From an uncultured Clostridia bacterium (lineage in GTDB: Bacteria > Bacillota > Clostridia > Oscillospirales > Oscillospiraceae): a DNA stretch of 40,229 bases. Shown here in pieces: positions 3,814 through 40,229 of the stretch. How positions within the stretch are numbered: position 1 is the stretch's first letter; every line of letters starts with the position of its first letter. The position numbers were made by a program, and so were the translations under genes. The notes under the pieces were generated by a model. The model was given only the letters and a program-made list of their open reading frames with translations. It searched no databases and was not told the DNA's origin. The DNA lies in the NCBI GenBank assembly GCA_946625125.1, contig CAMOSU010000009.1:1-40229 (forward strand). Direction: 5' to 3'.

Positions 3814-4740
3814 ATGAGTCAAGTCTGGTCTGTCACCTTGGCCGGGGTCGAGCTGCCCTGCGTGTTTCGCTTCCCGGATACCCGGCGATACTTTTCCGCG
3901 CTCCCCTCCCGGAAGGAAGCGGCGCTGCCGGACCCGGTCTGTATTCGGGAAGGGGAGTGGAGGGACGCGGTGAAAGCCATGCCCGCAAACGCCCATACGG
4001 AGTACAGCGTCCTCACGGCCTCCTTCGGGGACGCGCTGCTGGACTTTGATCGGATGATCCTGCACGGTGTTGCTCTGCGCAGGGGAGACCGCGCATGGCT
4101 GATCTGCGGAAACAGCGGCGTCGGCAAATCCACCCAGGCGCGTAAGCTGCAGGAGCTGCGCCCCGGTGAATTCAGCGTGATCTGCGGTGACCGCCCGATC
4201 CTGCAATTCTGTCATTCTGAGCGCAGCGAAGAATCCGTCCCCATCCCCCGTCCTTCTGAGCGCAGCGAAGAATCCGTCCCCGCCCCCCGTCCTTCTGAGC
4301 GCGGCGAAGAATCCGTCCCCGCCCTCCGTCATTCTGAGCGGAGCGAAGAATCCGTCCCCGCCCCCCGTCCTTCTGAGCGCGGCGAAGAATCCGTCCCCGC
4401 CCTCCGTCATTCTGAGCGGAGCGAAGAATCCGTCCCCATCCTTGTCCACCCCTCCCCCTGGAACGGCAAGGAAAACTGGCACGGCGCCCCAGCCGCGCCC
4501 CTGGCCGGCGTCATCATCCTGAAGCGCGGTGAGGAAAACACCGTCACCCCGCTCCCTCCGGCGGCAGCCTCCCTTGCGATGTTCCAATTCGTCATACAGA
4601 CCTATTGGGAGAAGGAGAGAATACTTGCCGCCGCCCGACGCACGGAGGAGCTGCTCCAATCGGTCCCCGTCTGGAGAATGACAAGCCATGAACTCCCCGA
4701 CTCCACAAGCCTCCTTCTGGAGACTGTGTTTTCCGGGTAA
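3814..4740 (+). CDS. HPr kinase/phosphorylase C-terminal-like (HPrK-related) kinase with internal repeat insertion
   Basis: Walker A GNSGVGKST, then ICGDRPILQF ... HPSPWNGKENW typical of HPrK-related kinases found with PqqD proteins; SD gggagga 6 nt before ATG 3814. Confidence 0.75.
   Translation: MSQVWSVTLAGVELPCVFRFPDTRRYFSALPSRKEAALPDPVCIREGEWRDAVKAMPANAHTEYSVLTASFGDALLDFDRMILHGVALRRGDRAWLICGNSGVGKSTQARKLQELRPGEFSVICGDRPILQFCHSERSEESVPIPRPSERSEESVPAPRPSERGEESVPALRHSERSEESVPAPRPSERGEESVPALRHSERSEESVPILVHPSPWNGKENWHGAPAAPLAGVIILKRGEENTVTPLPPAAASLAMFQFVIQTYWEKERILAAARRTEELLQSVPVWRMTSHELPDSTSLLLETVFSG
4213..4446. repeat. In-frame tandem array, 6 x 39 bp, of the CATTCTGAGCG(N)AGCGAAGAATCC dispersed repeat
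   Basis: Translated units HSERSEESVPIPR / PSERSEESVPAPR / PSERGEESVPALR / HSERSEESVPAPR / PSERGEESVPALR / HSERSEESVPILV. Confidence 0.95.
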
Positions 4741-10615: not shown

Positions 10616-10663
10616 GGACGGCGCCCCGCCGTCCGCCCCCGTAGGGACGGCACTCCGCCGTCC
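10616..10663. repeat. Two solo GGACGGC-N5-GCCGTCC palindromes of the same family as the right-edge array
   Basis: GGACGGC-gcccc-GCCGTCC (10616-10634) and gtagGGACGGC-actcc-GCCGTCC (10641-10663). Confidence 0.85.
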
Positions 10664-26660: not shown

Positions 26661-26679
26661 GGACGGCCCGCAGCCGTCC
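26661..26679. repeat. Solo GGACGGC-N5-GCCGTCC palindrome between ispG and polC
   Basis: GGACGGC-ccgca-GCCGTCC. Confidence 0.75.
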
Positions 26680-27785: not shown

Positions 27786-27996
27786 GGGCGCGCGGGCCCA
27801 CACCGCGCGCCCTTACGGGCGTGGTACGGCGGGACGGGGAAACCGTCCCCTACGGGCGGGTCATTCTGAGCGAAGCGAAGAATCCGCGTCCCCCGTCCCC
27901 TGATGCCTGGTGACTCGTCGGTGCGGGGTGCGGCGGGCCGATGCGGGCATACTTCGTGACGCTCCGAGTTCGGCCCCTGCGGGCGTGGCGCGTCAC
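27786..27996. repeat. Mosaic of palindromic repeats plus one GTCATTCTGAGCGAAGCGAAGAATCC copy between rseP and ispG
   Basis: GGGCGCGCGG-gcccaca-CCGCGCGCCC (27786-27812); GGGACGG-ggaaa-CCGTCCC (27831-27849); GTCATTCTGAGCGAAGCGAAGAATCC (27860-27885); GTGACG...CGTCAC and GGGCCGA...TCGGCCC pairings to 27996. Confidence 0.75.
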
Positions 27997-38471: not shown

Positions 38472-38840
38472 CTAAAAGATATTTCGCCAGGCCACCCGCT
38501 CCAGCTCCGCCAGCTCCCGGAGCATCCGAAGCAGACGGCGACAGCTCTGAAGAAACTCCCTTCCCCGAAGCTCCGCAAGCTCCTCCAGAGCCAGGGTAAT
38601 CTTCCCGCTGCGCTCATGGCTCAGCAGAGAGGCCAGAACTCCCTCCCGGCTTTGCCATTCCAATGCCGCCTTCCTTGCCAGCTCCCGGCTTCCGGCCTCA
38701 TCCCCGGCCTCAAAGGCGGAAGCGGCCAGCTCCAGGGGCAGGGAAGCGGCCTGGGTCCCACGACGGACCTGCTGCCAGGAAAACCAACAGCCCGTCAGCA
38801 GCAGGGCCAGAAGCAAAACTCCCACATAAAAGTATTTCAT
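38472..38840 (-). CDS. DUF4363-like protein
   Basis: Single N-terminal TM, MKYFYVGVLLLALLLTGCWFSWQQV; paired with DUF421 via ATGA overlap, a common DUF421-DUF4363 pairing. Confidence 0.7.
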   Translation of the reverse strand: MKYFYVGVLLLALLLTGCWFSWQQVRRGTQAASLPLELAASAFEAGDEAGSRELARKAALEWQSREGVLASLLSHERSGKITLALEELAELRGREFLQSCRRLLRMLRELAELERVAWRNIF

Positions 38841-39511
38841 AGCTTCTCCTTCTTAATAAACCGCACCTGCCCGCCGCTGTCCGCCGCCAGGAGAAACACC
38901 TCCCGGAGGGACACACCCCGGGCCTTCAGCTCCCGGTTTACCCAGGCCCGGTCATAGCCGGAGGCCTTGAGATTGTCCGGGAGCAGCACCCCGTCGGCAA
39001 TGAGATTGTAAAACAGCCCGGCAGGGGAGCGGGACAGGCCCAGATCCTCCCGGGTGGGACTCTGATGCTGGGGATAGGGCATCACCGTCAGCTCCCCGTC
39101 GGTTTCCAGAATGGCGTAGGCTACCGTGGTATAATCGAATACGTCCTTTTCCCGGAGCTTTTGCTCCAGCTCGTCCAGGCTGACCCGGGCGGCGGAGAGG
39201 GCCGCCTGGTCGATCCTACCCTCCCGGATCAGCGGCACCGGGACCCCGTTCAGCATCCGCCGCACAGGGAGCAGCTTCATGGACAGCACCGCCAGAATCA
39301 GCTCCAGGGCCAGCACCGTAAACATGGGAGCCACCCCGGAGAGCAGGGGCAGGGCGTTGTCCTGCATGGGGACGGAGGCCAGGTTTGCCAGGAGCATCGT
39401 CACCACAAACTCCGCCGGCTCCATCTCAGCCACCTGCCGTTTTCCCATCAGCCGCACGCAAAGAATCAGCAGTCCGTAGAGCACCGCCGTGCGAATCACA
39501 GAAATCGTCAC
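38837..39511 (-). CDS. DUF421 (YetF-like) membrane protein
   Basis: VRLMGKRQVAEMEPAEFVVTMLLANLASVPMQ, PVPLIREGRID...LREKDVFDYTTVAYAILETDGELTVMP; likely GTG start at 39511 after ggggtgatt, ORF open to 39577. Confidence 0.85.
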   Translation of the reverse strand: MTISVIRTAVLYGLLILCVRLMGKRQVAEMEPAEFVVTMLLANLASVPMQDNALPLLSGVAPMFTVLALELILAVLSMKLLPVRRMLNGVPVPLIREGRIDQAALSAARVSLDELEQKLREKDVFDYTTVAYAILETDGELTVMPYPQHQSPTREDLGLSRSPAGLFYNLIADGVLLPDNLKASGYDRAWVNRELKARGVSLREVFLLAADSGGQVRFIKKEKL

Positions 39512-39659
39512 CCAATCACCCCGGCCATAGTATGCCCCGGAGAAAGGGAAATAACCCACAAAGAAATGAGTCAGCAATTCCGCAATATGAAAAACAAACA
39601 GCGCAGCAGGGGCATACAGCGCGCGCCCGCCCCTACAGGCGGGAAACGAAACGAATACG

Positions 39660-39704
39660 CCGTAGTGACGAGCCGTGCTCGTCCGGTTTGCGCGGCAAAC
39701 AATC
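39660..39704. repeat. Two short palindromes of dispersed-repeat type
   Basis: GACGAGC-cgt-GCTCGTC followed by GTTTGC-gcg-GCAAAC. Confidence 0.65.
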
Positions 39705-39750
39705 GGATGCGTCAGCAGCCGATCCGGCAGCCGTCCGCCGTCCCTCGCCT

Positions 39751-40229
39751 GTAGGGACGGCTCTCAGCCGTCCGCCGTCCCCCGCCTGTAGGGACGGCAC
39801 TCTGCCGTCCGCCGTCCCCCACCTGTAGGGACGGCACTCTGCCGTCCGCCGTCCCCTGCCTGTAGGGACGGCTCCCAGCCGTCCGCCGTCCCCCGCCTGT
39901 AGGGACGGCTCCCAGCCGTCCGCCGTCCCCCGCCTGTAGGGACGGCACTCTGCCGTCCGCGTCCCCCGCCTGTAGGGACGGCACTCTGCCGTCCGCCGTC
40001 CCCCGCCCGTAGGGACGGCACTCTGCCGTCCGCCGTCCCCCGCCTGTAGGGACGGCTCTCAGCCGTCCGCCGTCCCCCGCCTGTAGGGACGGCTCTCAGC
40101 CGTCCGCCGTCCCCTGCCTGTAGGGACGGCTCTCAGCCGTCCGCCGTCCCCCGCCTGTAGGGACGGCTCCCAGTCGTCCGCCGTCCCCTGCCTGTAGGGA
40201 CGGCTCTCAGCCGTCCGCCGTCCCCCGCC
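39751..40229. repeat. Tandem array of 37-bp palindromic unit, 13 copies, running off the window
   Basis: Unit gtagGGACGGC(TCTCA/ACTCT/TCCCA)GCCGTCCgccgtcccccgcct; unit starts at 39751, 39788, 39825, 39862, 39899, 39936, 39972, 40009, 40046, 40083, 40120, 40157, 40194. Confidence 0.97.

Follow-up and report, generated by a model that had tools for sequence, protein, structure and literature searches.

The tandem array that closes the window (the whole stretch of DNA analyzed, 40,229 nucleotides, G000:C9:1-40229) is very probably a GTAG-type REP expanded in tandem, part of a REP-RAYT system (REPtron) of an uncultured Oscillospiraceae-like genus. REPs are tiny hairpins, present in hundreds of copies per bacterial genome, whose movement is attributed to a dedicated transposase of single-stranded DNA. 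The array represents a known kind of element, of which there are many families in the genus, with a marked head-to-tail bias that is unusual for REPs.

Tabulation of the array revealed 13 head-to-tail GTAG-GGACGGC-N5-GCCGTCC-linker units, starting at positions 39751, 39788, 39825, 39862, 39899, 39936, 39972, 40009, 40046, 40083, 40120, 40157, and 40194 (Table 1); because the array reaches the last base of the window and contig, 13 is a lower bound. The original prediction of a 13-copy, 37-bp array held for the copy number but not for every step, since eleven of the 12 steps measure 37 bp and one, that of the unit at 39936, measures 36 bp. Its counts of the N5 variants (TCTCA, 5; ACTCT, 5; TCCCA, 3) were reproduced, as was the single GTCGTCC right arm, which lies in unit 12 and is G-T compatible. 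Each of the 13 units opens with an unpaired GTAG, a feature absent from that prediction. The general layout of the REP is a 23-nt element with a 5' unpaired GTAG, an 8-bp perfect stem, and a 3-nt loop, i.e., CTC, CCC, or CTT, and an array unit folded as DNA has an energy of −9.5 kcal/mol (z −2.9). The linker contains a second GCCGTCC able to pair with the following GGGACGGC, and the dinucleotide on which it ends is a cleavage dinucleotide of characterized TnpA-REPs (PMC8266576).

Table 1. Coordinates of the array, other hairpins, and the neighboring gene in the window.
Feature	Position	Strand	Basis or remark
Truncated first unit, REP 3' half and linker	39728..39750	+	TRF array start 39728 and sequence
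13-unit REP array, open at window/contig end	39751..40229	+	Sequence, TRF, unit tabulation
One REP, 23 nt: GTAG tag 39751-39754, 8-bp stem, 3-nt loop	39751..39773	+	Recurs at each unit start
Linker GCCGTCCCCCGCCT	39774..39787	+	Terminal CT immediately 5' of next GTAG
Single GTAG-tagged REP of the array's family, loop ACTCC	10641..10663	+	Pattern scan
Untagged hairpin adjoining the preceding REP	10616-10634		Pattern scan
Array palindrome lacking GTAG; either a decayed copy or coincidental	26661..26679	+	Pattern scan
GTAG-tagged hairpin with a different stem (second family), GACGAGC-CGT-GCTCGTC	39662..39683	+	Similar to REPs flanking G018 RAYT in L151
GTAG hairpin of another family, GGGACGGTTTCCCCGTCCC	27831..27853	-	Resembles hairpins upstream of RAYTs in L148, L160
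DUF421/YetF membrane protein gene	38837..39577	-	Pfam DUF421 E=5.6e-33

At up to two mismatches, the pattern occurs 18 times in the window versus 0.53 expected. The palindrome was said to occur singly elsewhere in the window, and this is partly true: the GTAG-tagged copy has an untagged neighbor, and an untagged palindrome lies at 26661-26679 (Table 1). The array sits upstream of the start of the yetF (DUF421) gene; across the genus, none of the yetF orthologues amenable to scoring has a GGACGGC REP upstream, and REPs of other families lie upstream of two. Searching the window for Rfam families and for tRNAs returned no matches. A second tandem array, with 5.8 copies of a 39-bp unit containing GTCATTCTGAGCGnAGCGAAGAATCC, occupies window positions 4211-4437; its core, found 52 times in about 571 kb of sampled sequence and often adjoining GGACGGC REPs, is a separate interspersed palindromic repeat.

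Exact GGACGGC-N5-GCCGTCC copies number 274 in the window's genome, a metagenome-assembled genome (MAG) of 170 contigs that is 79% complete, compared with 0 for the reversed-pattern control. The context of the copies was studied in sampled stretches of this genome (approximately 571 kb), where 92 of 100 copies were flanked by an unpaired GTAG on one side only. When all 256 tetranucleotides preceding hairpins were scanned, TAGG and GTAG ranked at the top, 12- to 20-fold above average, and unrelated stems, e.g., GGGCGCACAGTGTGCGCCC, GGACAAGCCTTGCTTGTCC, and GGGGCGAGCATCGCTCGTCCC, were also found behind the GTAG tag. REP clusters lay outside naive open reading frames (ORFs) in 22 of 36 cases, with such ORFs covering 89% of the sequence. 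Judged by the sequence-testable features of REPs and REPtrons, the array elements are GTAG-type REPs, combining a one-sided unpaired GTAG (GTRG), many dispersed and mostly extragenic copies, and complementary stem changes. A pattern scan located the hairpin mostly in ruminant-gut MAGs named Oscillospiraceae, Clostridia, or Ruminococcus. In the window's genome, contigs C7, C9, and C10 begin or finish in REP arrays; REPs are therefore likely to interrupt the assembly, and the copies counted are likely to be fewer than those present.

The bases closing the loop co-vary across the loci analyzed. Positions 1 and 5 of N5 form a Watson-Crick pair in 284 of 294 context-distinct copies, compared to a mean of 104 and a maximum of 131 after shuffling, and 29 of the 36 distinct N5 types pair at these positions versus 9.4 expected. 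All four pairs (A-T, T-A, G-C, and C-G) are used, and mispaired intermediates like ACTCA hardly occur, the A-A mismatch being seen once in 294 copies. With N5 ends in copies beyond the array clearly not random, the original reading of a maintained nucleic-acid hairpin is borne out. As a rule, GTAG REP families include variants with complementary stem changes (PMC3733652), and an intact stem is required for cleavage by a related enzyme (PMC8266576); the covariation is real, but it is a known trait of GTAG REPs and not a new phenomenon.

Pfam PF01797 (Y1_Tnp) matched no protein of the window's genome and gave weak matches in the genus, many of them between inward GTAG hairpins. Because this model alone missed the RAYTs of the window's own genome, a dedicated profile was built from 14 proteins lying between inward GTAG hairpins. 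The best solved structure for this profile is TnpA-REP 4er8 (E=1.6e-14), and the best-scoring family is NCBIfam NF047646 REP_Tyr_transpos (E=4.9e-14), with scores of 52 and 67 bits under a curated 80-bit cut-off, which governs naming and does not reflect a biological property; the Pfam Y1_Tnp score of 23.5 bits against a cut-off of 23 marks a divergent RAYT. At the level of sequence alignment with 4er8, the HUH motif and catalytic Tyr are aligned, as are the W, Q, acidic, H, and R positions of the GTAG-reading region, including the W94/Q95/R104 contacts. The profile matched in 19 of 23 genus genomes, with three matches, one of them a fragment, in the window's genome; class-wide, 147 of 391 sampled genomes had matches at E<=0.001, many of the weaker ones probably being other Y1 proteins.

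Among distinct RAYTs 130 aa or longer, 32 of 48 lie between inward GTAG hairpins, an arrangement seen at 0.05% of random positions. The upstream and downstream arms around RAYTs have a similarity of 0.91, compared to 0.49 when shuffled, and the distance between stems rises with that between their RAYTs (Mantel r 0.41, p<=2e-4). Some RAYTs (L151, L124, L127, L128, L155, and L159) are flanked by two different stems, for example GGACAAGC with GGACGAGC and GCGGGCAATC with GCGGGCTATC, which suggests that each of these RAYTs has dimorphic REPs, a pattern described from enterobacteria. Ten RAYT-like genes (among them L145, L147, L149, L153, L154, L156, L158, L162, and L163) have no nearby GTAG hairpins and may be tied to other repeats (TIR type) or solitary. 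Fragments and frame-broken copies (L105, L136, L166, and L167) are decaying REPtrons; L166 lies in the window's genome between GCCGGC-type REPs.

The original prediction had suggested a link to REP/TnpA-REP, with a transposase carrying the same ends, and such a locus was found elsewhere in the window's genome. By its flanks, the RAYT L165 (G000:C43:8698-9159), with GGACGGC REPs on both sides, is the cognate of the array's REP. Its sister in another species, L152 in G005, is also flanked by GGACGGC REPs (62% identity, clade support 0.92), so each RAYT is flanked by the same REP, as in a REPtron. Counting against the REP-RAYT explanation are the 52-bit NCBIfam score of the RAYT, which falls under the cut-off, and the 79% completeness of the MAG; in addition, no inward-oriented REP is found within 350 bp downstream of L165; the downstream REPs are first in + orientation, with − orientation appearing from approximately 480 bp. 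The genomes of L165 and L152 have the two highest copy numbers among the 23 of the genus, 274 and 190, respectively; if copy number were unrelated, the chance of two given genomes ranking as the top two would be 1/253. At the RAYTs of Ruminococcus flavefaciens, Sporobacter termitidis, and an Opitutae MAG, no convincing GGACGGC REP flanks were observed, and the GGACGGC hairpins of these three (loops CATTG and GATTC) may therefore be separate families.

Over the genus loci, neighboring REPs are head-to-tail in 136 cases versus inverted in 18, with head-to-tail prevailing in nearly every family; 15 of 18 two-unit clusters are head-to-tail and 3 inverted, and all 11 larger clusters keep one orientation. 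The main arrangement is thus the direct repeat and not the inverted REP pair of REPINs, and this bias, unlike the usual inverted pairing of REPs, leaves the mobile unit uncertain. CT immediately precedes GTAG in 22 of 43 cluster leaders. Linkers and periods differ between arrays (37, 42, 47-51 bp, and longer), and since each array has its own, local growth is indicated, with founders duplicated together with their flank. Such growth would also be expected of an ordinary minisatellite, in which replication slippage copies a GC-rich palindrome without any mobile element being involved, and which the near-identical 37-bp steps, the array-specific linkers, and mild clustering of variants would all fit. 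That this is the whole account is barely credible, as copies are dispersed genome-wide, nearly all are GTAG-tagged, and a cognate RAYT is flanked by the same hairpin; slippage may explain the growth of the array but not the element, and as a full account the minisatellite is refuted. A CRISPR was rejected, the head-to-tail units being without unique spacers. It is also highly improbable that the hairpins act mainly in, and are kept for, a host RNA or chromosome role, as terminator, mRNA-end protection, or gyrase or nucleoid site, although they lie mostly outside naive ORFs and REPs elsewhere have been credited with such functions (PMC3733652). A host role is compatible with a REP-RAYT origin and not exclusive of it, but the one-strand unpaired GTAG, the match of stem to RAYT, and the lack of this REP at orthologous sites agree with a mobile element acting at the DNA level, and no Rfam family was matched in the window.

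Within the REP-RAYT explanation, a sub-case is templated amplification by the RAYT, through repeated CT cleavage and strand transfer or rolling-circle-like copying, with hairpin-templated stem repair. The head-to-tail excess among neighbors and two-unit clusters, CT at most unit junctions, and the near absence of intermediates such as ACTCA favor this route, but the same arrays are expected from slippage and unequal exchange, and arrays also occur at loci with no RAYT nearby; we consider it unlikely. The case for conversion or templated amplification made originally from the array itself proved weak, because each of the three N5 variants also turns up outside the array in this genome, their order shows only mild clustering (7 runs versus 9.4 expected, P=0.11), and linkers are array specific. 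The linker variant CCTG is seen with all three N5 types, for which exchange or recurrent change is needed. It is likewise doubtful that the RAYTs of this Clostridia lineage multiply single REPs, not inverted pairs, head-to-tail by their own cleavage and strand transfer, the arrays then not being products of slippage.

We infer that each 23-nt REP would be the single-strand hairpin substrate of a divergent RAYT, an HUH-Y1 nuclease. The RAYT on contig C43 would bind the folded strand, read GTAG, cut at a nearby CT, and disperse copies. A REP would have arrived upstream of yetF and then been duplicated in place, together with its linker, possibly via slippage, unequal exchange, or RAYT-driven re-ligation. 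Covariation of the closing pair would reflect the enzyme's need for an unbroken stem, with hairpin-templated repair possibly contributing.

Dozens of RAYT-REP pairs, spanning more than a dozen stem types, occur in this one genus and provide natural material for matching RAYT residues to the stems and loops that they read. The head-to-tail bias bears on the mobilized unit. The genus belongs to a gut bacterial group for which the accessible surveys hold no description of GTAG REPtrons. The main text of the GTAG REP survey (PMC3733652) makes no mention of Firmicutes or Clostridia, the accessible part of PMC6006769 names Clostridia only for IS200 subclass 1.1, and nothing specific on REPs or RAYTs in Clostridia was found in the literature covered, a limited coverage in which absence is not proof of novelty.

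Among known systems, the Stenotrophomonas SMAG/REPSm elements likewise have an unpaired 5' GTAG (PMC3733652, PMC8266576), and S. maltophilia REPSm is likewise 23 nt long with an 8-bp perfect palindrome and a 3-nt loop (PMC8266576). The GTAG REP super-family/SMAG likewise shows subfamilies with complementary stem changes, several families with family-specific REPtrons per genome, and clusters that include flanking DNA (PMC3733652, PMC8266576); unlike SMAG/REPSm, the elements described here have a Clostridia host and different stems and loops. The RAYTs resemble RAYT/TnpA-REP (E. coli 4er8; PMC2817692, PMC6006769) in being small, single-domain, and flanked by their own REP, but unlike E. coli TnpA-REP they are divergent, with extra N-terminal residues that resemble the group-3 type (PMC8266576). 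By analogy with REPINs (PMC3116915), the REP populations may be dispersed by a RAYT. The two differ in arrangement. REPINs are inverted REP pairs, whereas direct repeats prevail in this genus.
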